Positions 9,807 to 47,760 of a DNA stretch of 64,000 nt are shown here, piece by piece (the stretch's first letter is position 1; each line of letters opens with the position of its first letter). The notes beneath the pieces were generated by a model that saw only the letters and a program-made list of their open reading frames with translations, searched no databases and was not told where the DNA came from. The DNA is from Paludibacteraceae bacterium (GTDB lineage Bacteria > Bacteroidota > Bacteroidia > Bacteroidales > Paludibacteraceae). The position numbers and the translations under genes were made by a program. The stretch is from assembly GCA_017394705.1 (NCBI GenBank), contig JAFPXH010000006.1:62001-126000 (forward strand). The letters are read 5' to 3'.

Positions 9807-11627
9807 TTACATCCGTTCGGGCATCTCTATACCGAGAAGCTCGAAAGCGGAACGAAGTACTTTCGCTACGTTTGCAGATAAAAGCAGACGTAGCGATTTC
9901 TTTTTTGCATCGGGTTCGTTGAGGATACTCAGGTCGTGATAGAACGAGTTGAAATCGCACGCGAGGGCGTATGCATAATTACATAGGATCGCGGGCGAGA
10001 ACTCTTCTCCAGCCGCCCGAACCGCAGACGGGTACTCGCACAGACGCTGAATAAGAGCGAGCTCTTTATCCTCTAACCCGCTAACCTCTAACCCGCTAAC
10101 CCGCTCTGTTTCCGCTTTCCGCAGTACAGATTGGATACGCGCGTAGGTGTATTGGATAAAGGGACCTGTGTTACCGTTGAAATCAATCGACTCGGCAGGG
10201 TTAAAGAGCATGTTCTTGCGCGGGTCCACCTTGAGGATGAAATATTTAAGTGCTCCGAGCCCCACCTTGCGGGCAATCTCGTTCGCCTCGTCTTCGGTAA
10301 TGCCCTGAAGGGTATTGACCTTGTCCTTACTGATTTCGCGGGCATCGGAAATCATCTTCTCCATCAAATCATCTGCATCGACTACCGTTCCTTCGCGGCT
10401 TTTCATCTTTCCATTGGGCAACTCCACCATTCCATAGGAGAAATGGACGAGTTCCTTGCCGAAGGGGAAGCCCAGGCGGTCAAGGAGAATCGAGAGGACC
10501 TTGAAATGGTACTCCTGCTCATTGCCGACCACATAGACCATCTTATCAATCGGATAGTCCTGAAAACGCAGTTTGGCGGTACCTATATCCTGGGTCATAT
10601 AGACCGACGTACCATCCGAACGGAGCAACAGTTTCTCGTCCAGGCCGTCCTTGGTCAAATCCGCCCATACAGAGCCGTCCTCACGACGGTAGAACTGTCC
10701 TGTCGCCAGACCTTTCTCCACTTCCGACTTACCCTCGAGGTAGGTGTTGGACTCGTAATAAATCTTATCGAACGAGACGCCCATTCGTTGGTATGTCTCG
10801 TCAAAACCGGCATAGACCCATTCGTTCATCTTCGCCCAGAGTGCCCGCACTTCGGGATCGTTGTTCTCCCATTTACGGAGCATTTCCTGAGCCTCGAGCA
10901 TCAACGGCGCCTCTTTTTTAGCGCGCTCTTCATCCACGCCTTGGGACATCAACTCAGCAATCTGCTTCTTGTACTCCTTATCAAAACGCACATAGTAATC
11001 ACCGATGAGATGGTCGCCTTTCTTGCCGGAACTCTCGGGCGTCTCGCCATTTCCGTATTTCAGCCATGCTAACATGGACTTACAGATGTGGATGCCTCGA
11101 TCGTTGACGATGTTCGTTTTGACAACCTTCCATCCGTTCGCCTCTTGAATCTTGGCAATCGAATAACCCAAGAGATTATTACGAACATGCCCGAGGTGGA
11201 GGGGTTTATTGGTGTTAGGCGAGGAATACTCAACCATCATAAGCGGCTTCGCCGCATTGGTGATTGGTGATTGTTGATTGGTGATTGGCCGATCAAAGCG
11301 ACCGTAGTTAGCGTCGGCATCGATGGACAAGAGTTGCTCTACCCAGAAAGCATCAGAGATACTCAAGTTCAGGAAACCCTGTACCGCATTGTATTTAGCT
11401 ATCAGTCGCGAACCGTCAGCCATCATTCGCTCACCAATCTCTGCCGCTACCTGTGCCGGCGCTTTGCGGGCAACCTTAACAAAAGGAAACACCACTAATG
11501 TGATGTTACCTTCAAACTCCGGACGGGTCTTTTGTATCTGTATCTGGGAGTCGTCGGCCTCTACGTCATAAAGCGCTTTGACTGCCGCTTTCGCCAAAGA
11601 AGTAATCTGTTGTTCTAACATATTCAT
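9807..11627 (-). CDS. argS: Arginyl-tRNA synthetase
   Basis: A class I synthetase of 606 residues that charges tRNA-Arg. It has the HIGH-type signature (HLGHVRNNLLG), the Bacteroidetes-style KMSKS variant KMKSREGTVVDADDL, an N-terminal Arg-S domain and a C-terminal DALR anticodon-binding domain. The start at 11627 (MNMLEQQI) is uncertain by two codons. Two stretches are translated tandem repeats: residues about 110-123 (from CCAATCA-type 7-mers at 11258-11300) and about 506-520 (from GGTTAG-type repeats at 10067-10114). Both lie in weakly conserved segments next to conserved blocks. The gene follows the glycosyltransferase with a 14-nt gap, so it is likely in the same operon. Confidence 0.95.
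   Translation of the reverse strand: MNMLEQQITSLAKAAVKALYDVEADDSQIQIQKTRPEFEGNITLVVFPFVKVARKAPAQVAAEIGERMMADGSRLIAKYNAVQGFLNLSISDAFWVEQLLSIDADANYGRFDRPITNQQSPITNAAKPLMMVEYSSPNTNKPLHLGHVRNNLLGYSIAKIQEANGWKVVKTNIVNDRGIHICKSMLAWLKYGNGETPESSGKKGDHLIGDYYVRFDKEYKKQIAELMSQGVDEERAKKEAPLMLEAQEMLRKWENNDPEVRALWAKMNEWVYAGFDETYQRMGVSFDKIYYESNTYLEGKSEVEKGLATGQFYRREDGSVWADLTKDGLDEKLLLRSDGTSVYMTQDIGTAKLRFQDYPIDKMVYVVGNEQEYHFKVLSILLDRLGFPFGKELVHFSYGMVELPNGKMKSREGTVVDADDLMEKMISDAREISKDKVNTLQGITEDEANEIARKVGLGALKYFILKVDPRKNMLFNPAESIDFNGNTGPFIQYTYARIQSVLRKAETERVSGLEVSGLEDKELALIQRLCEYPSAVRAAGEEFSPAILCNYAYALACDFNSFYHDLSILNEPDAKKKSLRLLLSANVAKVLRSAFELLGIEMPERM
10067..10114. repeat. GGTTAG-type tandem repeat inside argS
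   Basis: Alternating 7- and 8-mers (AGCGGGTT, AGAGGTT on the coding strand) encode RVSGLEVSGLED near the start of the DALR domain. Related GGTTAG runs lie in the SusC leader and in murG. Confidence 0.75.
11258..11300. repeat. Heptad tandem repeat inside argS
   Basis: On the coding strand five 7-mers of CCAATCA type run in tandem and encode PITNQQSPITN between the N-terminal domain and the HIGH block. The same repeat type is mostly intergenic elsewhere in the window. Confidence 0.8.
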
Positions 11628-11641
11628 ATCTGTCTGTATTC

Positions 11642-12376: not shown

Positions 12377-12378
12377 AA

Positions 12379-13227: not shown

Positions 13228-13261
13228 TATACCAATTCAGCCTGCAAAATTACAAAAAAAT

Positions 13262-13293
13262 TTTGATATATGCAAAAAAAATCGTACCTTTGC
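13262..13293 (+). promoter_or_regulatory. Promoter of Xaa-Pro aminopeptidase gene
   Basis: TTTG (13262-13265), a 19-nt spacer and TACCTTTGC (13285-13293) match consensus. The spacer again contains ATATGC followed by an A-run. Transcription from here excludes the longer frame beginning at 13208 and supports the ATG at 13313. Confidence 0.75.
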
Positions 13294-13312
13294 AGCAAAA
13301 TTCAGGTTTGTT

Positions 13313-15124
13313 ATGAACACAAGAGACAAATTATCAGCGCTGCGCGCGGAGATGCGCGAGCATAAACTGGCCGCCTATATTGTGCCGGGCAATGATCCCC
13401 ATGCAAGCGAGTATATGGCCTCACACTGGTGTGAAATGCAGTGGCTATCAGGCTTCAACGGTGAGTCCGGTACCATGGTTGTAACACTGGATAGAGCTCT
13501 GCTCTGGACCGACAGTCGCTACTATTTGCAGGCAGGGATTGAGTTAAAGGATTCGACGATCGAATTAATGCGCGAGAGTGATATCGACTGCCCGTCCATT
13601 CCGGAATGGCTAACCACCAATGTACAGGGACTGATAGGCGTGAATCCGGAGATGTTCTCGGTCAACGATTTCAAGGAGTGGAAGGAAAAAATGGCGGCCG
13701 CGAATATCGCAATTCAATCCATTGACCTCATCCAACCTCTGTGGAAAGAAGGTCGTCCGGCTATTCCGCAGGACAAACTCTATCCCTACTCCGCCGACTT
13801 CGCTGGAGAAACAGTGGATAGTAAGCTCTCAAGGATGAGAGAGAAATTGACAAAAGGGCAATCACAAATAGGCAATCACAAATGGGCAATGATTATTAGC
13901 GCGCTCGACGAGATTGCTTGGCTGCTGAACATCCGCGGAAACGATGTGGAGTATAACCCTGTGGTCATCTCTTATGTTGTCCTTGAGGCTGACAAATGCA
14001 CCCTCTTTGTCCATCCCGAAAAGATAGACACGGTGGCGCAGAACTACCTTGATTTCAATGACATTGACGTAAAGCCTTATGAGGCCGTCTTTGCATATAT
14101 CTCCAGCCTCAGCGGAACGGTCTTCTTCGACGGAGCACGCGTCAACGAAGCGCTCTTCGAAGCTATTCCGGAGCACTGCAGAAAAGTGAACATGAAATCA
14201 CCTGTCCTCATCGACAAAGCAAAGAAGAATGCTGTTGAACTGGAGGGCGAGCGTGTGGCGATGCGCCGGGACTGCGCGGCTCTGACCCGCTTCTTCAAAT
14301 GGCTCGAAGAGGAGGCGTTCAAAACTCCGCAAACCGAATGGTCGCTAATGGAAAAACTGCATGAGTTCCGGCTCAAAGGCGAGAATTTTGTAGAGGAATC
14401 CTTTGGCACAATCGCCGGTTATCAAGGTAATGGAGCGATTGTCCATTACGCGGCTACGAAAGAGAACTGCGCCGAGGTCAAGCCTGAGGGAATGTTACTC
14501 CTTGATTCGGGAGGTCAGTACCTTGACGGCACGACTGATATCACGCGTACCGTTTGGCTCGGAGGACGTATTCCCCAACAGGCCAAATTAGATTACACCT
14601 ACGTTCTAAAAGGACACATCGCGTTGCAGCGCGCACGATTCCCAAGGGGCACCAGAGGCAATCAACTCGATGCGCTGGCGAAGCAGTTTATGTGGGAAGC
14701 CGGCATCACTTTTGGCCATGGTACAGGGCACGGCGTCGGTCATTTTCTCGGTTGCCACGAAGGTCCGCAGAACGTACGTACCGACAACAATCCCACGGCG
14801 CTGGAGGTAGGACACATCATCTCTGACGAACCGGGTATCTATCGTACCGGCAAATGGGGTATCCGCACGGAGAACCTGATTACGGTCATTCCCGCCAAGC
14901 AGACAAAGGAGACGACCACTGAAGATGAATGGCTGACTTTCGAAACGCTGACTCTCTGCTTCTACGACACCCGCCTGATTGAGATGAGCCTCATGACCAA
15001 TGATGAGATTGATTGGCTGAATGCATATCACGTACGTGTGTATAAAGAAACAGCCCCGCTGCTCAACGCAGACGAGGCTGAATATTTGGCAAAGAAATGT
15101 GCGTCTTTGCCAAACAAAGGTTAG
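13313..15124 (+). CDS. Xaa-Pro aminopeptidase (M24B)
   Basis: The 603-residue enzyme removes N-terminal residues that precede proline. Two creatinase-like N-terminal domains come before the pita-bread catalytic domain, where the metal ligands are visible: DGTTDITRT (two Asp, about 405-411), GHGTGHGVGHFLG (His, about 470), ISDEPGIY (Glu) and IRTENL (Glu). Its length fits the long, eukaryotic APP1-like type common in Bacteroidetes. Residues about 181-194 (KGQSQIGNHKWAMI) come from CACAAAT/GGGCAAT 7-mer repeats at 13853-13893 and lie between the first and second domains. It ends 3 nt from the end of htpG on the other strand. Confidence 0.93.
   Translation: MNTRDKLSALRAEMREHKLAAYIVPGNDPHASEYMASHWCEMQWLSGFNGESGTMVVTLDRALLWTDSRYYLQAGIELKDSTIELMRESDIDCPSIPEWLTTNVQGLIGVNPEMFSVNDFKEWKEKMAAANIAIQSIDLIQPLWKEGRPAIPQDKLYPYSADFAGETVDSKLSRMREKLTKGQSQIGNHKWAMIISALDEIAWLLNIRGNDVEYNPVVISYVVLEADKCTLFVHPEKIDTVAQNYLDFNDIDVKPYEAVFAYISSLSGTVFFDGARVNEALFEAIPEHCRKVNMKSPVLIDKAKKNAVELEGERVAMRRDCAALTRFFKWLEEEAFKTPQTEWSLMEKLHEFRLKGENFVEESFGTIAGYQGNGAIVHYAATKENCAEVKPEGMLLLDSGGQYLDGTTDITRTVWLGGRIPQQAKLDYTYVLKGHIALQRARFPRGTRGNQLDALAKQFMWEAGITFGHGTGHGVGHFLGCHEGPQNVRTDNNPTALEVGHIISDEPGIYRTGKWGIRTENLITVIPAKQTKETTTEDEWLTFETLTLCFYDTRLIEMSLMTNDEIDWLNAYHVRVYKETAPLLNADEAEYLAKKCASLPNKG
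13853..13893. repeat. Heptad tandem repeat inside Xaa-Pro aminopeptidase gene
   Basis: Alternating 7-mers GGGCAAT and CACAAAT, five in a row, stay in frame and encode GQSQIGNHKW. The block is in a linker region of the protein. Confidence 0.8.
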
Positions 15125-15127
15125 AAC

Positions 15128-17211: not shown

Positions 17212-17240
17212 TCGCCGTTTTTTACGGCGAACAAGAGAAA

Positions 17241-18488: not shown

Positions 18489-19349
18489 ATGCACAGTAGA
18501 GAAGAACAATTAGCTGCTTTTGAGCGGTTACTGAATATTATGGACGACCTGCGGGAGAAATGTCCGTGGGATCGCAAACAGACTTTTGACAGTCTGCGGC
18601 AGAACACCATTGAAGAAGCATTTGAGTTGGCAACCGCCATTTCGCGTCACGACATGAACGAGATTAGCAAAGAACTCGGCGATGTTCTCCTACACGTCGT
18701 TTTCTATGCCAAAATGGGCTCGGAAACCGGAGAATTCGACATCGCGGATGTATGTAACCGTCTATGCGACAAACTGATCTTCCGTCACCCGCACGTCTAC
18801 GGAGAAATGAGTAAATGTGAAAATGAGAAAATTGTAAATGACTCTGATGTCAGCCACTTGTGGGAACAGGTAAAACTCAAAGAGAAAGGCGGCAACAAAA
18901 CCGTGTTAGGCGGTATTCCTGACAGCCTGCCAAGCCTTGTCAAAGCCTACCGAATCCAAGACAAAGTAGCGAACGTTGGTTTTGACTGGGAGAAACGCGA
19001 AGACGTGTGGGACAAGGTTAAAGAAGAAATCGCAGAGTTTGAGGCCGAAATGCGCAAATGCGAAAATGAGAAAATGGCAAATGACCAAATGGTAAATGAC
19101 CAAATGGTAAATGAATTTGGGGATTTGCTATTCTCGCTGATTAACGCGGCACGGCTGTATAAAATCAAACCGGACAATGCGTTGGAGCAAACCAACCTCA
19201 AGTTCATCCGGCGGTTCAATTATATTGAATCCAAAGCGAAAGAACAAGGCCGCGCACTCAAAGACATGACCCTCGCCGAAATGGATACCCTCTGGACACG
19301 TGCCAAAAAAGAGGAAAAAGGGGGTGATTACGGGGTGATTACGGGGTAA
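18489..19349 (+). CDS. mazG: Nucleoside triphosphate pyrophosphohydrolase MazG, with repeat insertions
   Basis: The 286-residue protein hydrolyses NTPs to NMP and pyrophosphate and is thought to clean nucleotide pools. The first MazG domain shows CPWDRKQTFDSLRQNT, EEAFEL and ELGDVLLHVVF, with the acidic metal-binding residues intact. The second, weaker domain begins near residue 150. Three parts are translated repeats: about 107-118 (MSKCENEKIVND), about 190-208 (a tandem MANDQMVNDQMVNE stretch between conserved helices) and the last 11 residues, which come from the 11-bp repeat at 19318-19370. The second insertion splits EFEAEM from EFGDLLFSLINAARL, a helix pair normally close together. It is longer than the usual 260 or so residues for that reason. 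Confidence 0.92.
   Translation: MHSREEQLAAFERLLNIMDDLREKCPWDRKQTFDSLRQNTIEEAFELATAISRHDMNEISKELGDVLLHVVFYAKMGSETGEFDIADVCNRLCDKLIFRHPHVYGEMSKCENEKIVNDSDVSHLWEQVKLKEKGGNKTVLGGIPDSLPSLVKAYRIQDKVANVGFDWEKREDVWDKVKEEIAEFEAEMRKCENEKMANDQMVNDQMVNEFGDLLFSLINAARLYKIKPDNALEQTNLKFIRRFNYIESKAKEQGRALKDMTLAEMDTLWTRAKKEEKGGDYGVITG
19050..19115. repeat. 15-bp/7-bp tandem repeat inside mazG
   Basis: GGTAAATGACCAAAT repeats (15 nt, one 7-mer plus one 8-mer) follow shorter AAATG units and encode ENEKMANDQMVNDQMVN in frame. A second, shorter run (18808-18842) encodes KCENEKIVND earlier in the same gene. Confidence 0.8.
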
Positions 19350-19370
19350 TTACAGGGTGATTAGGGGGAT
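19318..19370. repeat. 11-bp repeat forming the mazG 3' end
   Basis: The 53-nt block matches 2628-2680 at 50 of 53 positions. It supplies the last codons and TAA stop (19347-19349) of mazG, so the C terminus KGGDYGVITG is repeat-derived. Confidence 0.85.
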
Positions 19371-19404: not shown

Positions 19405-19486
19405 TGCGGCATAAAAGACTCGAACTTTCACTCCTCTCGGAACCAGATCCTAAGTCTGGCGCGTCTACCAATTCCGCCAATGCCGC
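19405..19486 (-). tRNA. tRNA-Leu (anticodon TAG)
   Basis: The minus strand folds as an 82-nt class II tRNA. The acceptor stem pairs GCGGCAT with ATGCCGC, followed by discriminator A. The D arm contains AATTGGTAGACGC, the anticodon stem CCAGA/TCTGG closes loop CTTAGGA with anticodon TAG, the variable arm is long, and the T loop is TTCGAGT. CCA is not encoded. It reads CUA codons and, with modification, other CUN. The gene sits between mazG and the M16 peptidase on the opposite strand. Confidence 0.95.
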
Positions 19487-19600: not shown

Positions 19601-20840
19601 CACACAAACTTTTTATCATATTTTGCCAAACGGCGTTAAAATTGTCCATCGCTGGACGCCTTCCCCTGTGGCTTATGTAGGTGTGATGGTTGGTGCCGGA
19701 ACGCGGGACGAACAGCCCGAAGAGAACGGCATGGCGCATTATATCGAGCATTGTGTTTTCAAAGGAACAACCCATCGCTCGGCGCGACAAATCATTCATG
19801 CCATCGAAGGAATAGGCGGCGAGATAAACGCGTATACCACCAAAGAGGAAACCACTTTCTATGCAGCCATCCTCTGCGAACACGTACAACTCTCTCTCCA
19901 TCTGATTGCCGAAATGCTGCTCGAACCGGCTTTCAAGAAAGAAGAGACGGACAAAGAGCGGATGGTCATTCTTGATGAGATTGAGAGCTATAACGACAGT
20001 CCTTCCGAACTGATCTACGACGATTTCGAAAGTCTTGTTTTCTCTGGAACCAGTCTTGCAATGCCTATTCTGGGCACCAGGAAAACACTCCGGCATATAT
20101 CCTCCAATCCCGATTACGCCAAACGATGGATGGGCGAGCACTATCGCCCGGAGCGAATGGTCGTTTTCTGCCAGGGAAACATCGCTGCTGAACGCATTTT
20201 CCGTCTCGCGGAAAAAGAATTCGGCCATCTTACAGCCGAAACCGGTCTTACAGCAACGCGGTCCTACAGCGTCAGCGGTCCTACAGCGAACGAACGTGAG
20301 CGGTCCTTCCGAAAACATACTCATCAAGTGCACGCGATGTTAGGTGGAAAAGCTTACCCGCTGGGCCATGAGAACCAGTTAGCGATGTTTTTGCTCAATA
20401 ATATTCTGGGTGGCGGCAGTCTTAACAGTCGTCTCAATCTCAGTCTGCGTGAGGCGCGCGGGCTTGTTTATACCGTTGAGTCGGCCTATACGCCGCTTAG
20501 CGATACCGGTTACTGGTGTGTCTATTTCGCTTGTGACCCGGAAGACTATTCGCAAAGCCTTGATTTAGTGCGGCATGAGTTGGACAAACTGCGCACCACT
20601 CCATTGACTGAAAACGGTCTTCGGCACGCCTTGGACCAGCTGCGCGGTCAACTCGCCATTTCGGCTCAGAACCAGGAAAACAGCGCGCTGGCGATGGCCA
20701 AATCCGTCCTTTATCACGGCGTAGCACCTCGTTGGCAAGAGACCATGCAGAAAATCGAACAAACTACCACATTGCAATTACACCAAGTAGCAAAAGAAGT
20801 GTTCGAAGCACAAAACACTTACATTCTGACATACAAATAG
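19590..20840 (+). CDS. M16-family zinc peptidase
   Basis: The 416-residue protein has the inverted zinc motif HYIEH (50-54) and the downstream acidic ligand region (ETDKERMVILDEIESYND), and two M16 halves as in the PqqL/processing-peptidase group. It probably degrades or trims peptides; no signal peptide is evident at this start, so it would be cytoplasmic. Residues about 218-238 (from TGLTATRS to RERSF) come from an imperfect repeat of GGTCCTACAGC units at 20240-20305 and separate the two halves. The start overlaps the tRNA-Leu promoter on the other strand. I see no clear promoter of its own. Confidence 0.92.
   Translation: MQENTQTFYHILPNGVKIVHRWTPSPVAYVGVMVGAGTRDEQPEENGMAHYIEHCVFKGTTHRSARQIIHAIEGIGGEINAYTTKEETTFYAAILCEHVQLSLHLIAEMLLEPAFKKEETDKERMVILDEIESYNDSPSELIYDDFESLVFSGTSLAMPILGTRKTLRHISSNPDYAKRWMGEHYRPERMVVFCQGNIAAERIFRLAEKEFGHLTAETGLTATRSYSVSGPTANERERSFRKHTHQVHAMLGGKAYPLGHENQLAMFLLNNILGGGSLNSRLNLSLREARGLVYTVESAYTPLSDTGYWCVYFACDPEDYSQSLDLVRHELDKLRTTPLTENGLRHALDQLRGQLAISAQNQENSALAMAKSVLYHGVAPRWQETMQKIEQTTTLQLHQVAKEVFEAQNTYILTYK
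20240..20305. repeat. GGTCCTACAGC repeat inside M16 peptidase gene
   Basis: Three copies of GGTC(C/T)TACAGC spaced 16-17 nt, ending in a longer unit and a fourth GGTCC, stay in frame and encode a Ser/Thr/Arg-rich linker. This family differs from the 7-mers. Confidence 0.75.
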
Positions 20841-30942: not shown

Positions 30943-31395
30943 ATGAGTACTTTTGTTGGAAATATAGAAGGACGGTTGGATGAGAAAGGACGCATCTTTA
31001 TTCCTGCTGCGTACCGCCGTATTCTTTCCGAGGCAGAGTCGAAACGCATCGTCATGCGCCGTGATACAGACAATGAGTGTCTGATGTTCTACCCGGAAGC
31101 CGTGTGGAATGAGAAAGTGGAGACGCTCCGCGCCGCTCTGGATGAGTGGAATCCCGAGGATCAACTGATTCTTATGCAGTTCATGGCTGACGCTGAATAT
31201 ATGGAGCTCGACGGCCAGGGACGTATTTTACTGCAGAAGAAAAACCTGGAAACCATCGGCGCACAGAGCGACGTGCTCTTCGTCGGAATGCTTAACCGCT
31301 TCGCGCTGTGGGCTCCGGAGACGTTCGCCGCCAAACGTCTCAGTCAAACCGAATTGGCTGCAAGATTGCGTGCAAAGATGAGCCGAAACAATTGA
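30943..31395 (+). CDS. mraZ: Transcriptional regulator MraZ
   Basis: The 150-residue protein has two SpoVT/AbrB-like swapped-hairpin halves (FVGNIEGRLDEKGRIFIPAAYR and YMELDGQGRILLQKKNLE, quoted in part) and is the first gene of the division and cell-wall cluster. MraZ binds its own promoter and adjusts dcw transcription; a candidate box lies at 30615-30629. The start at 30943 (MSTFVGN) matches family. Its stop codon lies inside the left heptad repeat of the element that holds the next gene. Confidence 0.95.
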   Translation: MSTFVGNIEGRLDEKGRIFIPAAYRRILSEAESKRIVMRRDTDNECLMFYPEAVWNEKVETLRAALDEWNPEDQLILMQFMADAEYMELDGQGRILLQKKNLETIGAQSDVLFVGMLNRFALWAPETFAAKRLSQTELAARLRAKMSRNN

Positions 31396-31910
31396 CAATT
31401 CACAATGTACAATTAACAAAGGGCAACAAGAATATGTACGGACTTGGGATTTTAGGCGATAAAATAGAGGCTTTTACCAAACGCATCGTGAAAGCTACTA
31501 AATTTATTAAGGACAAAAAGGAGTACAGCCTTGCGGACCAATTCTTCCGTAGCGGCACCTCTATTGGTGCTAATTGTAGCGAAGCGGTTAGCGCGGTGTC
31601 CAAAGCAGATTTTGCGAACAAATTAAGTATTGCCCTAAAAGAAGCTAACGAGACCTGTCACTGGATTGAAGTTGCTCATGCTGCAGAACTATTCGATGAA
31701 AGTACGTACAATTCCATGAAGGAAGATGCGGTTGAGATATGTAAGTTATTAACATCTATAATAAAAAACGTACGTGCGAACATAGACAACGCTAGGAAGA
31801 ATTAGGCAGAGAACCTGTTCGGCACAAACTTACTAAACATGCACCTTCTATCAAAATAGTACAAAACCTGCTAGAACGCTTTGTAAATTGTTAATTGATA
31901 ATTGTTAATT
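31390..31910 (+). mobile_element. Palindrome-ended element enclosing a four-helix-bundle gene (E2)
   Basis: The left end (31390-31424, CAATTGA/CAATTCA/CAATGTA/CAATTAA 7-mers then CAAAGGGC) and the right end (31876-31910) are inverted copies matching at about 27 of 35 positions. They enclose the gene at 31434-31805. The right 90 nt also match the right two thirds of the gene-less element at 17554-17688. The layout, a protein gene inside a stem formed by complementary ends, recalls the intervening sequences of bacterial 23S rRNA, here placed between mraZ and rsmH. No transposase is present. Mobility is inferred from the dispersed copies. Confidence 0.55.
31434..31805 (+). CDS. Four-helix-bundle protein, 23S rRNA intervening-sequence (S23) family
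   Basis: The 123-residue protein is predicted to be all helical, with the family pattern FRSGTSIGANCSEA and ALKEANETCHWIEV, and matches the four-helix-bundle proteins first seen inside 23S rRNA intervening sequences. Related proteins (Avd) bind nucleic acid in diversity-generating retroelements, but no reverse transcriptase or template repeat is here. The biochemical role is unknown. I chose the ATG at 31434 (MYGLGILGDKIEAF); the frame extends upstream but only through the repeat and mraZ. It splits mraZ from rsmH and is flanked by inverted repeats. Confidence 0.88.
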   Translation: MYGLGILGDKIEAFTKRIVKATKFIKDKKEYSLADQFFRSGTSIGANCSEAVSAVSKADFANKLSIALKEANETCHWIEVAHAAELFDESTYNSMKEDAVEICKLLTSIIKNVRANIDNARKN

Positions 31911-32903
31911 ATGCCAGACGCCTATCATATACCGGCCATGCTAAAAGAGACCATCGAAGGCTTGAACATCAAGCCCGGTGGGGTGTATGTGGATGTCACT
32001 TTCGGAGGAGGAGGACATAGTCGCGCAATTCTTGAGAAATTAGCCTCTCCCTACCCATCCCCTGAAGGGAAGGGAGAAAAGGGAATGTTGTTTTCTTTCG
32101 ACCAAGATATTGAGGCCTACGAGAACGCGCAAGCACAGATGGCCAATGGCAAATGGCAAATGGCAAATGATTCTTGGACATTTGTGCATAGTAATTTTCG
32201 ATATCTAAGGAACTGGATGGATTATTATGATGTGCCGGAGATTGACGGCATTCTGGCAGACCTCGGCGTCAGTTTCCACCATTTCGACTGCCCGGAACGC
32301 GGTTTCTCTTTCCGGTTCAGCGCACCGCTTGACATGCGTATGAACCAGACATCCAAACGCACAGCCGCAGACATCGTTAACAGTTACAGCGAAGAAGAAC
32401 TGGCGCAACTCTTTTATCTATACGGTGAACTGAAGAACGGCCGGCAGATAGCGCGTGCCATCTGCAAAGCGCGCACAGACAAACGCATCGAGCGCACTGA
32501 AGACCTTGTAAAGATAGCCTTCCCCCATCCCCTCCCTGAAAGGAGGGGGGATGAGATCGAAGTTCCAACAAATGCCAAGAAAGACTTGGCCCGCCTCTTC
32601 CAAGCCCTGCGTATCGAGGTCAACGATGAGATGGGAGCCCTGCGCGAGATGCTTCTCGCCGCGAGAGACCTTCTCAAACCGGGCGGACGCATCGCTATTC
32701 TTACCTACCACTCGCTCGAAGACCGACTTGTAAAGAATTTCCTGAGAAGCGGCAACCTCGAAGGCACAATAGAGAAAGATTTCTACGGGAATAACCTCAG
32801 TCCTTTCACGCTTATCGAGAAAGGTCGCGAGGCCTCTGCCGAAGAAATAGAACGTAACCCGCGCGCCCGCAGCGCCAAACTGCGCGTAGCAGAGAAAAAA
32901 TAA
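31911..32903 (+). CDS. rsmH: 16S rRNA (cytosine(1402)-N(4))-methyltransferase RsmH
   Basis: The 330-residue enzyme methylates C1402 in the ribosomal P site. It has the SAM-binding VYVDVTFGGGGHSRAIL, ADLGVSFHHFDCPERGFSF, and the C-terminal LTYHSLEDRLVKNF and NPRARSAKLRVAEK blocks. The start at 31911 (MPDAYHIPAMLKE) matches family and directly follows the right end of the element. Three stretches are repeat-derived: about 45-60 (YPSPEGKGEKG, from a palindromic CCCATCCCCTGAAGGGAAGGG), about 75-88 (QMANGKWQMAND, from GGCAAAT 7-mers) and about 203-214 (FPHPLPERRGDE, again from a CCCCTCC palindrome). ftsL overlaps its stop by 1 nt. Confidence 0.95.
   Translation: MPDAYHIPAMLKETIEGLNIKPGGVYVDVTFGGGGHSRAILEKLASPYPSPEGKGEKGMLFSFDQDIEAYENAQAQMANGKWQMANDSWTFVHSNFRYLRNWMDYYDVPEIDGILADLGVSFHHFDCPERGFSFRFSAPLDMRMNQTSKRTAADIVNSYSEEELAQLFYLYGELKNGRQIARAICKARTDKRIERTEDLVKIAFPHPLPERRGDEIEVPTNAKKDLARLFQALRIEVNDEMGALREMLLAARDLLKPGGRIAILTYHSLEDRLVKNFLRSGNLEGTIEKDFYGNNLSPFTLIEKGREASAEEIERNPRARSAKLRVAEKK
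32045..32090. repeat. Palindromic C/G-run repeat inside rsmH (copy 1)
   Basis: CCCATCCCCT-GAA-GGGAAGGG forms an inverted repeat and stays in frame. A second copy of the same family is at 32521-32555. Confidence 0.7.
32129..32170. repeat. Heptad tandem repeat inside rsmH
   Basis: Four GGCAAAT-type 7-mers in a row encode QMANGKWQMAND in the region after the SAM-binding loop. They match the type of 7-mers seen at 2205-2625. Confidence 0.8.
32521..32555. repeat. Palindromic C/G-run repeat inside rsmH (copy 2)
   Basis: CCCATCCCCTCCC and its inverse GGAGGGGGGATG pair around TGAAA; in frame, encoding FPHPLPERRGDE. It resembles REP-like palindromes usually found between genes. Confidence 0.7.
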
Positions 32904-35049: not shown

Positions 35050-36501
35050 ATGATTCTTAGCGAGTTATTAAGCGTCATTGAACCGATTGAGGTTCTGGGC
35101 GATGTGAACAAAGAGATCAAGGGTCTGCATTTCGACAGCCGCAAAATCGGCGAAGGTGACCTTTTTGTAGCGCAGGTTGGCACAGCAGTAGATGGACATA
35201 CGTTCATTGATGGTTGTGTCGCCAATGGCGCCGCGGCGATTGTTCTTTCGGACAAGAAATATATGAAAGAAAGGAAGGGAGTTACTTTCATCTTAGTCGA
35301 GAATACGGATAAGGCGTTGGGATTACTGGCGAGCAAGTGGTTTGGAGAGCCGAGCAAACAACTGACGCTTGTCGGTGTGACGGGCACCAACGGCAAGACC
35401 ACAATCGCCACCTTACTATATAAACTCGTGCGCGCGCTAGGTCATAAAGCCGGTCTGCTGTCCACCGTTGTCAATTATATCGAAGAAGAGGCCGTACCGG
35501 CGACGCATACTACACCGGACGCCATTGAGTTGAACGGGTTGTTGAGACGAATGGTGGATGCCGGTTGTAAGTACGCGTTTATGGAAGTGAGTTCGCACGC
35601 GATTGCGCAAGAACGGATTGCCGGACTCGATTTCGATGGTGCGTTGTTTACGAACCTGACGAGGGATCATATTGATTATCATAAGACTTTCGACAATTAC
35701 CGCGATACGAAGAAAAGGCTGTTTGACGGTCTAAAGAAGAGCGCTTTCGCGGTGACTAACAAGGATGACAAGAACGGGTTAGTGATGACGCAGAACTGCA
35801 AAGCGGAAGTGAAGACCTATTCCACCCGCGCGCTGGCAGATTACAAAGCGCAGATACTCGAGGAAGGTTTCGAAGGCATGCTGCTGAATATCAACGGAAA
35901 AGAGGTCTTTGTGCCCTTGGTGGGACGGTTTAACGTAAGTAACCTATTGTGTATTTATGGTGCGGCATTGTGTTTAGGTTTTGAGGAATTGGATGTACTG
36001 CGCGTGCTGAGCACTTTAAAACCCGTGAACGGGCGCTTCGAGACCATCCGTAGTCCCAAGGGATGGACCGCCATCGTCGATTATGCTCATACGCCAGACG
36101 CCGTGGATAATGTCATTCAAACGATTCGAGAAATCAAGAAAGAAGGCGCCAAACTAATCACAGTGGTGGGGTGTGGTGGAAACCGAGACAAGGGCAAACG
36201 ACCAATGATGGCTCAAATAGCCAAACGCGGTAGCGAACAACTCATCCTCACGTCTGACAACCCACGTGACGAAGAGCCGGCAGACATTCTGAAAGATATG
36301 ACGGATGGATTGACGGAAGAGGAACTACGGAACACACTGGTTATTGAGGACCGCGCCACGGCTATCCAGACCGCTTGCACCCTTGCCCAGGCGGGAGATG
36401 TCATTCTTGTTGCCGGTAAGGGGCACGAAGATTATCAGATTATTAAAGGAGTAAAACATCACTTTGATGATCATGAGGTAGTTCGCAAGTTTGCGGACTA
36501 A
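35050..36501 (+). CDS. murE: UDP-MurNAc-tripeptide synthetase MurE
   Basis: The 483-residue Mur ligase has the ATP loop GVTGTNGKTTIA, the central domain, and the DNPRDE motif that marks enzymes adding meso-diaminopimelate. It extends the peptidoglycan stem peptide in the cytoplasm. It follows ftsI by 18 nt. The gap to mraY holds a 7-mer TTTGAGA repeat. Confidence 0.95.
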   Translation: MILSELLSVIEPIEVLGDVNKEIKGLHFDSRKIGEGDLFVAQVGTAVDGHTFIDGCVANGAAAIVLSDKKYMKERKGVTFILVENTDKALGLLASKWFGEPSKQLTLVGVTGTNGKTTIATLLYKLVRALGHKAGLLSTVVNYIEEEAVPATHTTPDAIELNGLLRRMVDAGCKYAFMEVSSHAIAQERIAGLDFDGALFTNLTRDHIDYHKTFDNYRDTKKRLFDGLKKSAFAVTNKDDKNGLVMTQNCKAEVKTYSTRALADYKAQILEEGFEGMLLNINGKEVFVPLVGRFNVSNLLCIYGAALCLGFEELDVLRVLSTLKPVNGRFETIRSPKGWTAIVDYAHTPDAVDNVIQTIREIKKEGAKLITVVGCGGNRDKGKRPMMAQIAKRGSEQLILTSDNPRDEEPADILKDMTDGLTEEELRNTLVIEDRATAIQTACTLAQAGDVILVAGKGHEDYQIIKGVKHHFDDHEVVRKFAD

Positions 36502-36533
36502 TTTGAGATTTGAGATTTGAAATTTGAGATACT
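36500..36533. repeat. TTTGAGA heptad repeat between murE and mraY
   Basis: Four 7-mers (TTTGAGA, one TTTGAAA) fill nearly the whole 32-nt gap between the two genes. Confidence 0.75.
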
Positions 36534-40440: not shown

Positions 40441-40442
40441 TT

Positions 40443-40916: not shown

Positions 40917-40967
40917 TGCTGCATTTTGGATTTAAATAAAATCACTAAACATCAAACAATAAACATT

Positions 40968-42751: not shown

Positions 42752-43701
42752 CCAATCGAACCAATAGTCAGAAAGAGGAGACCGGTGAGGATGCCGAGCA
42801 TGCAGGCGACCTTTTTCCATGGATCTTGTTCTTTTAAGAAAAGCAGGCCATAGGCAAAACCTATCACTGCGCCGCCGCGTCGGATTGTACTCACGACTGC
42901 AATCAAGCTGTCCGGGTCACGCAACGCCAGCATATAGACGTTATCAGAAACAATCAAAAACAGGCTTATCAAGAGGATAACGCCTTTTTTTGTTATTTGC
43001 CATTTCTCTACCGCAGGGGCGTGATTAACTTCATTTTTGCCATTGGTCATTGGCCATTTTTTATTTGTTATTCCCCATACGACGAGCATCATCACCGCTT
43101 GATAGAGCGTATAATAGACCTGTACGGCATTGTGGTCGTATTGCCGCATGAGATACTTGTCGTACAACCCTGCGCAGGAACCAATTAAAATAGCCAAAGC
43201 GAGGGCTACGTAGTATTGATTTGAAGCTTTGAAGATTTGAGGATTTGCCATTGGCGATTTGCTCTTGAACGAGAAGACGAAGATAGAGCCTATGGCGAGG
43301 AGCACACCAATCCACTGCCAACCGTTCAGGCGCTCATCGAACAACACCAATGCTCCCACTAATGTCCACATAGGCCGCGTCGCCTGCATCGGGCTGACTA
43401 CCGACAACGGCAGATGCTTCAGCGATATATAGGCAAAAACCCAACTGCTTAGGACAATCATCGATTTTACCACCACATATCCGTGTGCCTGCAGATCCAG
43501 ACGCGGCACATAAAAAGCCGTGCCCTCCATTATCTCCGGACACACCCGTGACAGCAACAACGGCACCAACAATATTAACGACGAGAAACAGATGCTCATT
43601 GTCAGCACGTCTATCACCCTGTTTTCCCGAAGCGCAATCTTCTTGCTGATGTCATAGCCACCCAGGCATAGAGCCGATATAAACGACAGTACAATCCACA
43701 T
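42748..43701 (-). CDS. EamA-family membrane transporter, with repeat insertions
   Basis: A 317-residue protein with about ten membrane helices and two EamA-like halves (VSPMQATRPMWTLVGALVLFDE is the clearest family block, quoted here in part). Substrate unknown. Two loops are encoded by tandem repeats: about 144-161 (FKSKSPMANPQIFKASNQ, from GAAGATTT and CAAAT-type units) and about 209-235 (KKWPMTNGKNEVNH and EKWQITKKG, from CCAATGA 7-mers at 43000-43075). Both fall between helices, where extra residues are tolerated. The ATG at 43701 is used; a TTG 21 nt upstream is a weaker choice. Confidence 0.88.
   Translation of the reverse strand: MWIVLSFISALCLGGYDISKKIALRENRVIDVLTMSICFSSLILLVPLLLSRVCPEIMEGTAFYVPRLDLQAHGYVVVKSMIVLSSWVFAYISLKHLPLSVVSPMQATRPMWTLVGALVLFDERLNGWQWIGVLLAIGSIFVFSFKSKSPMANPQIFKASNQYYVALALAILIGSCAGLYDKYLMRQYDHNAVQVYYTLYQAVMMLVVWGITNKKWPMTNGKNEVNHAPAVEKWQITKKGVILLISLFLIVSDNVYMLALRDPDSLIAVVSTIRRGGAVIGFAYGLLFLKEQDPWKKVACMLGILTGLLFLTIGSIG
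43000..43075. repeat. Heptad tandem repeats inside EamA transporter gene
   Basis: On the coding strand CCAATGA, CCAATGG, CAAAAAT and neighbouring 7-mers encode a hydrophilic loop. A second run, at 43216-43262, encodes the loop before it and includes the GAAGATTT type. Confidence 0.75.
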
Positions 43702-43718
43702 AATTTGAAAAAACGGCT

Positions 43719-43767: not shown

Positions 43768-43789
43768 CCGCGTTTTTTGGATAGGAATC

Positions 43790-44869
43790 ATGAAGTATCT
43801 TATTTCGGGAGGGGGAACGGGCGGTCATATATTCCCCGCAGTGAGTATAGCTAATGCACTGAAGGAGTTGGATCCTGAAGCGGATATACTGTTTATCGGC
43901 GCACTTGGTCGCATGGAGATGGAGCGTGTTCCTCAGGCGGGTTATAAGATCATCGGTCTGCCCGTGCGTGGATTCAACCGCTCTCAGCCATGGAAGAACG
44001 TGTCGGTGCTGATAGACCTTGTCAAGTCCATCTATCGTGTGCGCAAGATCATCCGTGCTTTCAAGCCGGACGTAGGTGTAGGTGTGGGTGGTTATGCCTC
44101 CGGTGCAGCGATGTGGTCGGCAGCGAAGATGGGCATTCCTATATTGCTTCAGGAGCAGAACGGTTTTGCCGGAGTAACGAATAAGATACTGAGAGACAAA
44201 GCTGCGAAGATATGCGTGGCGTATGAGGGCATGGAGCGTTTTTTCCCTGCCGACAAGATTATCCTGACCGGCAATCCGGTAAGGCAGGAGTTGCTCTCAG
44301 GAGTCAGGAGGCAGGAGGCAGGAGTCAGGACGCTGCTTATTTTAGGTGGTAGTCTGGGTGCGCGGACGATTAATGAAGCGGTGATTAGTGGATTAGGGGT
44401 TAGTAGATTAGGGGATAGTAATATACATGTGGTATGGCAGACGGGGAAAATCTATTTCGAGCGCTGCCAGGCAGCATGGGCAGCAGCTGGTGGGCCGTCG
44501 AACGTAGAGGTTCACGACTTCCTCTCGGACATGCCGGACCGTTACGCTCAGGCGGACCTTGTTATCTCCCGTGCCGGTGCATCGTCCATCAGCGAGATAT
44601 GTCTGTTAGGCAAACCGGCAATCCTTGTTCCCTCGCCTAACGTAGCGGAGGATCATCAGACTCACAACGCGATGGCGCTGGTTAGCAAAGAGGCTGCGGT
44701 TCTCGTGCGTGATGGCGATGCGGAGGAAAAATTAATTCCCACCGCGCTGACGCTTCTACAAGACGATAAGGTGCTCAAGAAACTGCATACGAATGTGCTT
44801 AAGCTTGCGCAGAAAGACTCCGCCAAACGTATCGCGGAAGAGGTGATGAAGTTGGCAAGCCATTTGTAA
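43790..44869 (+). CDS. murG: Lipid II synthase MurG, with repeat insertions
   Basis: A 359-residue GT28 enzyme that adds GlcNAc to lipid I at the inner face of the membrane. It has the N-terminal GGGTGGHIFPAVSIA, VGVGGYASGAAMW, LLQEQNGFAGVTNK, and the UDP-GlcNAc site SRAGASSISEICLLGKPAIL. Residues about 170-182 (SGVRRQEAGVR, from CAGGAGT/CAGGAGG 7-mers) and about 198-213 (ISGLGVSRLGDSN, from GGTTAG units) are repeat-derived and flank the LLILGGSLGA strand. It has its own promoter, away from ftsW. Confidence 0.95.
   Translation: MKYLISGGGTGGHIFPAVSIANALKELDPEADILFIGALGRMEMERVPQAGYKIIGLPVRGFNRSQPWKNVSVLIDLVKSIYRVRKIIRAFKPDVGVGVGGYASGAAMWSAAKMGIPILLQEQNGFAGVTNKILRDKAAKICVAYEGMERFFPADKIILTGNPVRQELLSGVRRQEAGVRTLLILGGSLGARTINEAVISGLGVSRLGDSNIHVVWQTGKIYFERCQAAWAAAGGPSNVEVHDFLSDMPDRYAQADLVISRAGASSISEICLLGKPAILVPSPNVAEDHQTHNAMALVSKEAAVLVRDGDAEEKLIPTALTLLQDDKVLKKLHTNVLKLAQKDSAKRIAEEVMKLASHL
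44295..44336. repeat. CAGGAGT heptad repeat inside murG
   Basis: Five CAGGAGT/CAGGAGG 7-mers in tandem encode SGVRRQEAGVR just before the central strand of the second domain. Confidence 0.8.
44381..44418. repeat. GGTTAG repeat inside murG
   Basis: GATTAGT/GGATTAG/GGGTTAG units encode VISGLGVSRLGD. The part 44389-44410 differs at one of 22 positions from the SusC leader. Confidence 0.8.
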
Positions 44870-44887
44870 TTGGTAATTGGTAATTTA

Positions 44888-45946
44888 ATGATTGGACAAG
44901 CAAGACATATAGTTATCTTCACGCATATGGCTCCAGACGGTGATGCCATGGGTTCCGCGCTGGCGATGTGGCACTATTGTAAGGACCGCTTTGCTGAAAG
45001 GGGAAAAGTGAAAAGTGAAAGTGGAAAGTGGAGCGTGACGGTGATTGTGCCGAATGCTTTTCCGTCCTTCTTTGACTGGATGCCCGGTGCGCATGAGATT
45101 AAGATTTACGAACACGAGGCGGAAAAATGCAATAAATTGATTGCCGAGGCAGACCTATTCTTTTGTCTGGATTTCAATGACCCGAGCCGTATCGGTCCTA
45201 TGGGCGCACGCATGTTAGCGAACCCGTGTCCGAAAATACTCATAGACCACCACCCGGGATTGGAAAGAGGAAAGTGGAAAGAGGAAAGTGAAAGGGGAGA
45301 GGGATTGACAGAGATACACTCTGATCCCGAAGCGTGCTCGACATGCGAAATAGTGTATCGGCTGATAGTGGAAAGTGGAGAGTCGATAGTCGATGGTCAG
45401 ATAGCAACGTGTCTATACACGGGTTTAATGACAGACACGGGTAATTTCAGTTTCAATTCCACTCGTGCAGAACTATACGACATCATCGCTTCTCTTTTAC
45501 GCGCGGGCGTGAAGAAAGACGAGATATACGACGCCGTTTTTAACCAATATTCGGCAGACCGCGTGCGCCTCACCGGTTATGCCCTTCACCGTAAGATGCG
45601 TATCTACCCCGAGCATCACCTTGCGCTCATCACGTTGAGTGCCGATGAACTGGAGCGTTTCCATTACCAGATAGGCGACACGGAGGGGTTGGTGAATATG
45701 CCACTCCAGATAAGCGACGTTTATTACTCTGTTTTCATGCGTGAGGAGCGTGCAAAGCCCGGCACGCCCAAATCCCGGATACGTATCTCCTTCCGCTCGC
45801 AAGGCGACCGTCCTGTGAACATATGGGCAAGCGAAGTCTTCCACGGAGGCGGTCATATGAATGCCTCGGGAGGAGAGATATACGGCACCATCGGGCAAGC
45901 AGTAAGACTTTTTGAACAGAGTTACAAAAAGTATTTGAAGATTTGA
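44888..45946 (+). CDS. DHH-family phosphoesterase (NrnA-like), with repeat insertions
   Basis: The 352-residue protein has DHH-domain motifs THMAPDGDAMGSAL, DFNDPSRIG, IDHHPG and GLMTDTGNF, and the DHHA1 signature GGGHMNASGG. NrnA-type enzymes degrade nanoRNA and may hydrolyse pAp or cyclic dinucleotides. Three linkers are encoded by 7-mer repeats: about 37-50 (GKVKSESGKW), about 124-139 (ERGKWKEESERGEGL) and about 160-172 (ESGESIVDG). All sit between, not in, the catalytic motifs. Its ATG at 44888 lies within a GTAATTG repeat, 18 nt after murG. Confidence 0.9.
   Translation: MIGQARHIVIFTHMAPDGDAMGSALAMWHYCKDRFAERGKVKSESGKWSVTVIVPNAFPSFFDWMPGAHEIKIYEHEAEKCNKLIAEADLFFCLDFNDPSRIGPMGARMLANPCPKILIDHHPGLERGKWKEESERGEGLTEIHSDPEACSTCEIVYRLIVESGESIVDGQIATCLYTGLMTDTGNFSFNSTRAELYDIIASLLRAGVKKDEIYDAVFNQYSADRVRLTGYALHRKMRIYPEHHLALITLSADELERFHYQIGDTEGLVNMPLQISDVYYSVFMREERAKPGTPKSRIRISFRSQGDRPVNIWASEVFHGGGHMNASGGEIYGTIGQAVRLFEQSYKKYLKI
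44996..45042. repeat. GAAAAGT heptad repeat inside nrnA-like gene (copy 1)
   Basis: Six 7-mers (GGAAAAG, TGAAAAG, TGAAAGT, GGAAAGT) in frame. Two more runs in the same gene are at 45258-45306 (GGAAAGA/GGAAAGT) and 45366-45404 (AGTGGAA, AGTCGAT). Confidence 0.8.
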
Positions 45947-45975
45947 AGATTTAAAAATTTAATGGTTATATATTT

Positions 45976-47760
45976 ATGAAAAAGATTTTATTGATTATGT
46001 CAGTGGCGGCGATGAGTTATACCGCCATGGGTCAAACACTCTTGACTGTCAACGGCAAGCCTGTCAGTACGGAGGAGTTTCTGTACATCTATGAGAAAAA
46101 TAACCAAGCCGGAGCCATCGATCCCAAGACGATGGACGAGTATCTGGAGATGTTCATCAATTTCAAGCTGAAAGTGGCAGAAGCGGAAGCCCAGGGTATA
46201 GACACGACGGAGTCCTTCAAGAAAGAGTTAAAGGGCTACCGTGCTCAGGCAACGCCGCGTTATCTTCAGGACGAGCACGCGATGGACAGCCTTGTTGAAT
46301 TGAGTTGGCGTCATATGTCCAAAGACCGTCGGGCAGCGCACATTGCCGTTCAGTGTCCGGCTAATGCTGACGCAGAGACGACCGCCAAAGCGCTGTCAAT
46401 CATCAACGAAGCCCGCGAACGTGTGACAATCGGCAAACTGAAAAGTGAAAGGAAGAAAGTGAAAGGCAAATGGCGCAATGTGGAGAAACGTCTGCCGGTA
46501 GAACGCTTTGCAGACGTGGCCCGCGAAGTAAGTACCGACCCTAACGTTGGAGAGACAGGTGGTGAATTAGGCTGGATTACGCCGTTCCGGTATGTGTATC
46601 CTTTCGAAGAAGCCGTCTATGAGACTCCTGTCGGCCAAGTGAGTGAAGTTTTCCGCACACAGTACGGTTTCCATATCGCGCTAGTAGAGGAAGAGCGTGA
46701 CCACCGTGAGGTGAAGGCCTCGCATATCATGAAAATGACCCCGCGTGGAGAATCCAGCGACAGTATTGTTGCCGCCAAGAAAGCACTGATTGATTCGATT
46801 GCCGCCATCGTAACGCCGAACAATTTCGCTGAGATAGCCAAAGTGGAGTCCGAAGACCGTGGCAGCAGTATGCGTGGCGGCGACCTTGGTTGGTTCGGAA
46901 TGGGTATGATGGTACGCCCCTTTGAAGATTGTGTTTTCGCGCTGAAAGAAGGCGAGATTAGCAAACCTATCCAGACCCATTACGGATGGCATCTCATCTA
47001 TAAAACAGGTGAACGGGGCATCCAGCCTCTCGATTCCATACGTTCGCAGATACTGCGTCAAGTTCAGCGCGACGAGCGTTCCAAAGAGGCAGATAAGAGT
47101 TTTATCCGCAAGACCCGCCAGGAGTATAACTTACCTACTGAAATGAGCGACGAGGAAGTGAAAGCATATGCGGACGAGCATCTTGAGGAGAAATATCCGG
47201 AGTTGAAGAATCTGGTTCAAGAATACCACGACGGCATCTTGCTCTTCGAAGTATCGCTACGTGAAGTATGGGACAAGGCGGCGCAAGACACCGTGGGTCT
47301 GGAGAAATTTTTCGCAGCCAACAAAAAGAAATATACATGGGACCAACCGCACTACAAAGGATGGTTGCTGCAATGCAAGGACAAACGTTCAGCCAGAGCA
47401 GCACAAGCCATCATCAAGAGTGCCCACCCGGATTCCATCAAGAGTTATATAGCCCACCGCATCAACCAAGACAGCGTGACGTATGTCAAAGCACAACGCG
47501 GTTTATGGGAGCAAGGCAAGAACGCAGCCGTAGATAAATACGGTCTGAAAATCAAAAAAGCAGCCTTCACGCCGAGTGAGCAGTTGCCTATCGTGGTATG
47601 CGTAGGCAAGAAACTCAAAGGCCCGGAAGAATGGAGCGATGAGAAAGGCACGCTGATTACCGACTACCAGGACTACCTGGAGGCCGAGTGGATTAAGCGT
47701 TTGCGCGCCAAATATCCCTACGAGGTAAACAAAGACGTTTGGGAGAGCATAAAGAAGTAA
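45976..47760 (+). CDS. SurA-like peptidyl-prolyl isomerase with two parvulin domains
   Basis: The 594-residue periplasmic protein has a signal peptide (MKKILLIMSVAAMSYTAMG), a SurA-N-like chaperone part (about 25-150), and two PpiC parvulin domains near 170-245 and 250-345 (ELGWITPFRYVYPFEEAVY and DLGWFGMGMMVRPFEDCVF). It should help outer-membrane proteins fold. Residues about 154-168 (KLKSERKKVKGKW) come from GTGAAAG 7-mers and extend the loop before the first parvulin core. It precedes gldG with overlapping or near-adjacent reading frames. Confidence 0.92.
   Translation: MKKILLIMSVAAMSYTAMGQTLLTVNGKPVSTEEFLYIYEKNNQAGAIDPKTMDEYLEMFINFKLKVAEAEAQGIDTTESFKKELKGYRAQATPRYLQDEHAMDSLVELSWRHMSKDRRAAHIAVQCPANADAETTAKALSIINEARERVTIGKLKSERKKVKGKWRNVEKRLPVERFADVAREVSTDPNVGETGGELGWITPFRYVYPFEEAVYETPVGQVSEVFRTQYGFHIALVEEERDHREVKASHIMKMTPRGESSDSIVAAKKALIDSIAAIVTPNNFAEIAKVESEDRGSSMRGGDLGWFGMGMMVRPFEDCVFALKEGEISKPIQTHYGWHLIYKTGERGIQPLDSIRSQILRQVQRDERSKEADKSFIRKTRQEYNLPTEMSDEEVKAYADEHLEEKYPELKNLVQEYHDGILLFEVSLREVWDKAAQDTVGLEKFFAANKKKYTWDQPHYKGWLLQCKDKRSARAAQAIIKSAHPDSIKSYIAHRINQDSVTYVKAQRGLWEQGKNAAVDKYGLKIKKAAFTPSEQLPIVVCVGKKLKGPEEWSDEKGTLITDYQDYLEAEWIKRLRAKYPYEVNKDVWESIKK
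46436..46485. repeat. GTGAAAG heptad repeat inside SurA-like gene
   Basis: CTGAAAA, GTGAAAG, GAAGAAA, GTGAAAG and GCAAATG units encode a lysine-rich loop. Confidence 0.7.

Follow-up and report, generated by a model that had tools for sequence, protein, structure and literature searches.

Tandem heptamer arrays occupy shared loops and junctions in the housekeeping genes of a Paludibacteraceae genus

Results

Arrays in the window and in its genome

The window studied here is the 64,000-nucleotide stretch at positions 62,001 to 126,000 of the forward strand of contig JAFPXH010000006.1 of Paludibacteraceae bacterium (assembly GCA_017394705.1), a genome of 1.2 Mb in nine contigs that is 71% complete. 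Tandem arrays of short, degenerate units, many of them heptamers, lie in frame inside its housekeeping genes and at the junctions between such genes. Across the genus, these lineage-specific arrays are found in the same few loops and junctions, with units that differ between species, and some units are common to scattered sites and species. The arrays have probably dispersed within the lineage, and their content has probably been rewritten in place by slippage. Among named relatives, the nearest are uncultured members of the Paludibacteraceae or Bacteroidales; the record titles of many give sheep, goat, cattle, buffalo, pig, horse and deer as the sources of the samples.

When an array is defined as a stretch scoring at least 12 in self-comparison (match +1, mismatch −2), as for all counts in the window and its genome, the window contains 12 arrays of period 7, five of period 8, three of period 11 and more at periods 14, 15 and 22; five third-order Markov shuffles give none at any lag from 4 to 30. 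In a sample of 454 kb of the same genome (the window and 390 kb more), there are 57, 17 and 16 arrays of periods 7, 8 and 11, and a single shuffle yields one array, at lag 4. The array frequency in the 390 kb outside the window matches that inside. With mechanically called open reading frames (ORFs), 39 merged arrays of this sample lie fully within ORFs and 46 outside, the rest being at ORF edges. Two tandem copies of AAATKRC are found at 36 places, on five of the nine contigs. A long GGAGTCA run was also seen in a genus genome near a contig end (G023:C60:66-247).

A first-pass annotation of this DNA had described 7-mer runs in frame inside eight named genes. This is correct for seven of them, and the period of 7 is real, although periods of 8, 14 and 15 (7+8) also occur. 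On the minus strand, argS carries a 15-base (7+8) array encoding VSGLEVSGLE (10070–10101) and a heptamer array encoding PITNQQSPITN (11256–11288), and the EamA gene carries an octamer array (43220–43247). The other in-frame arrays are on the plus strand. The Xaa-Pro aminopeptidase gene has a period-14 array (13850–13890); mazG has an octamer array (18805–18841, of which 18805–18832 scores 11) and an octamer array followed by a 15-base array holding CAAATGGTAAATGAC (19048–19114); and rsmH has a heptamer array encoding MANGKWQMAN (32139–32169). In the array scan, murG shows a heptamer array encoding SGVRRQEAGVR (44297–44330), also seen in the orthologue alignment, and a 15-base array (44385–44420). 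The nrnA-like gene contains three heptamer arrays (44996–45032, 45261–45290 and 45367–45398). Further heptamer arrays, detected by the same scan on the plus strand, lie at the murE-mraY junction (36501–36530) and across the murG-nrnA junction (44862–44885). The eighth gene, SurA-like, has a weak period-14 stretch of 25 bases scoring 11 (46442–46466, plus strand).

The other repeat families described at first pass are also real, as judged from sequence and alignment. In rsmH (plus strand), these are the in-frame GC-rich palindrome PYPSPEGKGEKG (32049–32080, at about 32054) and a second one encoding PHPLPERRGDE (32520–32555, at about 32529). The M16 peptidase gene (plus strand) has three copies of a 16–17-base unit, CGGTCCTACAGCG (20243–20289), and a similar in-frame unit is present in argS of locus L214.

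Slots in housekeeping genes across the genus

Orthologues were aligned for seven genes of the dcw cluster (up to 51 rows) and for argS, mazG and nrnA (30 species each), with arrays scored at 9 or more. The rows above the identity limit were 35 of 39 for rsmH, 27 of 41 for ftsI, 42 of 44 for murE, 42 of 48 for mraY, 51 of 51 for murD, 30 of 45 for ftsW and 32 of 34 for murG; the alignment of rsmH slots 2 and 3 was inspected in part. SurA was compared with one relative, and the genus orthologues of EamA, M16 and the aminopeptidase fall outside this comparison. In the seven dcw genes, there are 15 slots with 63 species-slot arrays, 59 of which are in slots that are gappy in other species. Nine slots are common to at least two species, and in eight of the nine the units differ between species. 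The genes are unevenly occupied, with no array in 42 rows of mraY and one in 27 rows of ftsI.

The same pattern is observed outside the cluster. Each of the three nrnA slots has arrays in 7 of the 30 species, with 6, 5 and 7 different units in the order of the window arrays. The four argS slots have arrays in 3, 4, 2 and 6 species: the slot of the window array at 11256–11288 is occupied in 4 species with 4 units, several species lacking the insert, and that of 10070–10101 in 6 species with 6 units, while the third slot is in a gapless stretch. Arrays are rarer in mazG than in argS and nrnA, the slot at 18805–18841 being occupied in 2 of the 30 species. The slots also host elements that are not heptamers, namely GC-rich palindromes and hairpin units of 16–20 bases. 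In one genome (G009; loci L292, L293 and L295), in-frame NDQMVNDQMVN inserts were seen in valS-, glnS- and ileS-like genes, the names being given by eye from the flanking peptides.

In rsmH, murE, murD, argS and mazG, alleles with an array exceed in length those of the outlying species shown, as is expected of insertions; for argS, mazG and nrnA, insert lengths were compared in 12–16 species per gene with one strand translated, and the array count was redone with 30. The open length of murD varies among the orthologues of the genus, several of which give two matches around an insert. A clean intergenic insertion of 45 bases is seen when comparing L115 with L086. The density of period-7 arrays around murD is 16.6 per 100 kb in the 24 nearest loci, 10.6 in the next 10 and 3.3 in the other 46.

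The suggestion that the inserts fall in loops agrees with the orthologue alignments, with the solved relatives and with the predicted structures. The solved relatives of RsmH (1wg8) and the aminopeptidase (3ctz) have gaps at the array points. In the RsmH model (from 26 sequences), residues 45–58 and 79–88 form coil between helix and strand, with confidence blocks of 64–76, and in the MurG model (from 25 sequences) the array, residues 171–179, is likewise coil between helix and strand.

At murG, the geometry of the slot is different. The solved relative 3s2u has a loop of about equal length; 9 species have a slot of 26–27 residues without a scoring array, and the loops of 13 outlying rows are 34–40 residues long and free of repeats. 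Here, therefore, the array replaced an existing loop, and the expectation that alignment would reveal insertions, which holds for rsmH, murE, murD, argS and mazG, does not extend to this loop, where equally long repeat-free segments do exist.

Turnover of array content

The murG loop illustrates how the content of a slot changes. In 34 rows, it has 27 residues in 14, 26 in 4 and 28–34, with other inserts, in 3. Nine of the loops of 27 residues score as heptamer arrays with differing units, and the units of this loop include GAGTCAG, GTGAAAG, GCGAAAG, GACAAAG, AAATTAA, AAATCAA and ATCGAAA. In the sisters L082 and L085, the loop has equal length and wholly unlike units, between flanks that are 84% or 94% identical, depending on the choice of query. 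Between L131 and L103, the consensus unit changes by a single base, a difference resembling concerted drift.

The individual pairs named in this section come from a comparison covering arrays whose best partner has flanks at least 82% identical, out of 62 arrays with a partner. In a separate comparison of 89 allele pairs with lengths equal modulo 7, which are not independent, the units are closer in register than out of register in 52 and equal in 5, with a mean of 3.26 differences in register and 4.99 out of register. Together with the drift pair L131/L103 and the replacement in L082/L085, these counts indicate that drift and whole replacement both occur. Copy-number steps of 21 bases (coding, L111 versus L113) and of 7 bases (intergenic, L125 versus L104) are also found.

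Units shared between scattered sites

Several units recur far from each other. With tandem copies counted singly, the mazG 15-mer CAAATGGTAAATGAC has 70 copies in 13 of 41 genus genomes, and GGAGTCAGGAGTCA has 42 copies in 12 of 41. An ordered 25-mer of 7- and 8-base units has 82 copies, allowing at most one mismatch, in 19 of 41. The backward readings of all three are absent from the 41 genomes. When compared with these absent controls, the recurring units behave as dispersed elements of the genus.

Forty sites each of the 15-mer (from 4 of its 13 genomes) and of the 25-mer (from 6 of its 19) were fetched. The 15-mer is read through in frame at 18 sites, stands at ORF starts at 13, is antisense at 1 and is otherwise placed at 8. 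For the 25-mer, an ORF of 70 codons or more begins at the element's own ATG, or next to it, at 22 sites; the element is read through at 6 and is otherwise placed at 12. At 30 of the 40, an ORF of at least 80 codons terminates at or close to the element. Within the 25-mer, TAAATAAATGA places a stop in every frame ahead of ATG codons. In the 46 rows of the mraY-murD junction, an element of the 25-mer type is present in L085 and, less exactly, in L091, and many rows have a short spacer alone.

Reading frames of the coding arrays

Unit statistics were taken from 188 period-7 arrays (the 454-kb sample, 183 kb of G035 and 740 kb around the dcw cluster), among which there are 83 different consensus units. 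Both strands contain a stop in 9 of 82 units in ORFs, in 24 of 57 from intergenic arrays and in 20 of 49 at ORF edges, compared with 27% for random units of equal composition. The mean hydropathy is −1.00 for the 82 units as coded, +0.64 for the 44 codable in antisense and +0.13 for the 77 codable units of noncoding arrays. The coding arrays thus show a statistical bias to readings that are hydrophilic and free of stops, the outcome expected of selection against the other readings.

A gene framed by inverted arrays

Between mraZ and rsmH, the window has a gene for a 123-residue four-helix-bundle protein (31434–31805, plus strand) that matches PF05635 (3e-25) and TIGR02436 (2e-29); two further NCBIfam models match far below their cut-offs. 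We take PF05635 to include relatives of the Avd protein of diversity-generating retroelements. The gene is framed by two heptamer arrays in inverted orientation: the left one (31390–31421) overlaps the mraZ stop codon, the right one (31879–31910) adjoins the rsmH start codon at 31911, and their inverted match scores 17.0 (p 0.027). None of the 35 relatives with mraZ and rsmH both in view was found to have the gene at this junction. In L085, an 80% identical relative lies on the opposite side of mraZ, and the family is present in 31 of the 41 genus genomes.

The inverted pairing is also found when considering other members of the family. In 26 loci (25 of 30 fetched loci, those with full flanks, and the window), the inverted match between the flanks exceeds the 95% point of mismatched pairs 15 times, and it is better than the direct match in 23. 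Of 286 ordinary genes of 100–400 residues, 3 exceed this score inverted and 8 direct, with the direct match better in 141 and the inverted in 105; the difference between 15 of 26 and 3 of 286 is significant (Fisher p 4e-16). An array occurs within 250 bases in 23 of 50 flanks of the four-helix-bundle genes and in 30 of 238 control flanks, a 120-base spacer having been demanded of the controls alone. Some flanks hold the hairpin unit GACCGCTTCGCTGACA instead of heptamers (L376).

A second gene family is associated with the GC-rich palindromes. DUF559 genes are found in 15 of the 41 genus genomes, and of the 9 best loci, 5 carry GC-rich hairpins at both ends of the gene. At the mraY-murD junction, a DUF559-type unit is present in 7 of 46 rows (L082, L109, L110, L115, L116, L117 and L118); in three of these (G030, G021 and G035) the gene also matches in the family search, which confirms it, and the rest are assigned by likeness. 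The right GC-rich palindrome of this unit is, by eye, in frame as the start of MurD. The fetched loci L401–L409 are of DUF559 genes with GC-rich palindromes.

Other repeats of the window

An intergenic heptamer block, located with a tandem-repeat finder, extends over 2204–2603 and consists of AAATGGC, AAATGAC, AAATTAC and AAATGGG units with embedded 26-base units containing GCCCTTTAGGGC. The 26-base hairpin units lie among the heptamers at 2247–2560 and resemble small dispersed repeats reportedly present in Nostoc. A second class of arrays, of period 11 (GGGGTGATTAC, GAATAACTAAC), is seen at 2631–2678, 19321–19368 and 52395–52440. The sole Rfam match in the window is a tRNA gene on the minus strand (19405–19486), near the period-11 array that ends at 19368.

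Discussion

The arrays have probably spread within this lineage and then been renewed where they lie. In the mechanism we propose, arrays would disperse through a copying step, with a candidate mobilizer, and would settle where genes tolerate them, in variable loops and gene junctions, with selection discarding harmful readings. The unit may then be renewed, with the frame left intact, by slippage followed by realignment or by 21-base steps (three units), and a cassette of the four-helix-bundle gene and its inverted array ends may be one carrier. The suggestion of an active repeat-spreading process made in the first-pass annotation is borne out as far as lineage-specific, in-frame arrays with units recurring at scattered sites of the genus are concerned; a single spreading element does not fit 83 units in 188 arrays.

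Several observations weigh against dispersal followed by rewriting. Neither a copying event nor an array shared by two loci as a copy with its variant order is seen in the species-level data. Units are farther apart in register than out of register in 32 of the 89 allele pairs. A sense stop is present in the consensus unit of 19 of the 82 coding arrays, so some ORF calls or units must be wrong. A 21-base higher-order signal in coding arrays of at least 35 bases (identity 0.83 at lag 21 versus 0.70 at lag 7) was dropped, the period-7 arrays alone showing none (0.868 versus 0.874). Outside the genus, three tandem copies of AAATGRC, the one unit tested, are found in 6 of 198 genomes and the backward control also in 6, and an order-wide repertoire of units is for this reason not claimed. 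The number of four-helix-bundle genes does not track array density (rho 0.11, p 0.64, 19 genomes). In a first count, an array lies within 250 bases of the gene in 19 of 30 loci, which looks stronger than it is because this is also the case for 161 of 507 ordinary genes; the flank comparison, and above all the inverted pairing, is firmer.

Plain local slippage of the polymerase, with every array growing from its own seed, no movement between loci and selection removing the harmful ones, is an explanation that we consider rather unlikely. It accounts for the period of 7, a length known to be favoured in slippage (Mrazek et al. 2007, cited from the available text of PMC4679880), for the copy-number steps of 7 and 21 and the one-base concerted drift, and for nearest units that are often in register. 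Yet the whole unit differs at equal length between sister species, and 14- and 15-mers and the ordered 25-mer are found at scattered sites in 12–19 of 41 genomes where backward readings of the same composition and period are not found at all. Local slippage alone is therefore insufficient.

Maintenance by function is improbable; in this reading, the arrays would provide starts of translation or spacer peptides, and selection, not spread, would make them recur. The 22 of 40 25-mer sites that start an ORF at their own ATG, and the hydrophilic peptides that are encoded, would suit such a role, and a regulatory one is proposed for the TAACTGA repeats by start codons in Beggiatoaceae (available part of PMC4679880). 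However, sister species differ freely in what a slot contains, the same place is free of arrays in many species, and convergence would hardly yield an ordered 25-mer at 82 places.

More improbable still is movement by a system of the repetitive extragenic palindromic (REP) type, with a REP-associated tyrosine transposase (RAYT), or by elements of the Rickettsia kind. In-frame inserts in housekeeping genes and palindromic elements in the same slots recall such systems, but the heptamer arrays are tandem and have 83 units. RAYT-type matches above the cut-off occur in 12 of the 41 genus genomes, mostly weak, and there is none in the window's own genome, which is 71% complete; RAYT is a weak candidate as a mobilizer. 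An artefact of assembly or binning can hardly be credited. The completeness of 71%, and the labelling of most relatives used as metagenome-assembled genomes (MAGs) or uncultured, would allow for one, but the housekeeping ORFs stay open across the arrays, and MAGs obtained from sheep, goat, cattle, buffalo, pig, horse and deer samples share the slots.

With dispersal and rewriting as the preferred explanation, its carrier can be considered. It is possible, although on balance doubtful, that a new class of minimal mobile cassette, with a PF05635/TIGR02436 gene between inverted arrays, has the heptamer arrays as its ends. Freed ends could then disperse non-autonomously into loops and start codons, in parallel with a system of DUF559 gene and GC-rich palindromes that would leave in-frame palindromes in the same loops.

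Several known systems are related to these arrays. Rickettsia palindromic elements are longer, form one conserved palindromic family and insert in frame in housekeeping genes at tolerated places. The resemblance to them, which was pointed out at first pass, is confined to the tolerated in-frame insertion in housekeeping genes; here, there is no single palindromic family but tandem arrays, 188 of them, with 83 consensus units. Elhai and colleagues reportedly described in 2008 small dispersed repeats of Nostoc in which small hairpin units are embedded in heptamer arrays. The block at 2204–2603 of the window is built in the same way, with other sequences and in another phylum.

The closest likeness is to the heptamer kind of short tandemly repeated repetitive (STRR) sequences, also treated as long simple sequence repeats. 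In the available parts of the sources, these are degenerate tandem heptamers, dispersed over the genome, often near start codons and with a preferred length of 7 (PMC4679880, PMC4692102). In Beggiatoaceae, some cyanobacteria and five Bacteroidetes, TAACTGA repeats are described that lie by start codons and seldom within ORFs (PMC4679880), and G-rich heptamers of Xanthomonas and Nostoc are treated in PMC4692102. The present arrays share the 7-base tandem units, which are well above chance, and the genome-wide dispersal. They differ in the many units found in one genome, in how often they lie in frame in loops of essential genes and in the unit differences between sister species. STRR sequences are mainly intergenic and rare in ORFs as far as these parts of the two papers go, whereas 39 arrays lie here in ORFs and 46 outside; this abundance in ORFs, rather than the type of unit, sets the present arrays apart as a variant. 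Replacement of one heptamer class by another as a block at a fixed site is also described, as a repeated event, for the trnL intron loop of lichen Nostoc (available part of PMC4476775); that is a single intron site, whereas many protein-coding slots and junctions are used here. The system of REP sequences, their REPIN forms and RAYT (PMC3116915, in the part available) also joins a putative partner gene to short non-autonomous repeats, a pairing that DUF559 and the palindromes suggest here; unlike in that system, RAYT does not appear to track the arrays, and the heptamer arrays are not palindromes. In the titles and abstract openings of the open-access literature searched, neither in-frame heptamer slots of essential genes nor heptamer-framed four-helix-bundle genes are mentioned, which is not a claim of absence from print. 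We place the arrays with the known heptamer STRR kind, as a variant that probably disperses, settles where it is tolerated and is rewritten by slippage.

This genus uses loops of MurG, MurE, MurD, RsmH, ArgS and NrnA as slots whose sequence is swapped between species while the core of the enzyme is conserved. To our knowledge, essential enzymes are usually thought to be closed to repeat insertion. The slots provide many natural replicates for studying how tandem repeats arise, are copied and stay in frame, and where an essential enzyme has loops that accept foreign sequence. If cassettes of the four-helix-bundle or DUF559 genes do drive the spread, two small gene families would gain a function.

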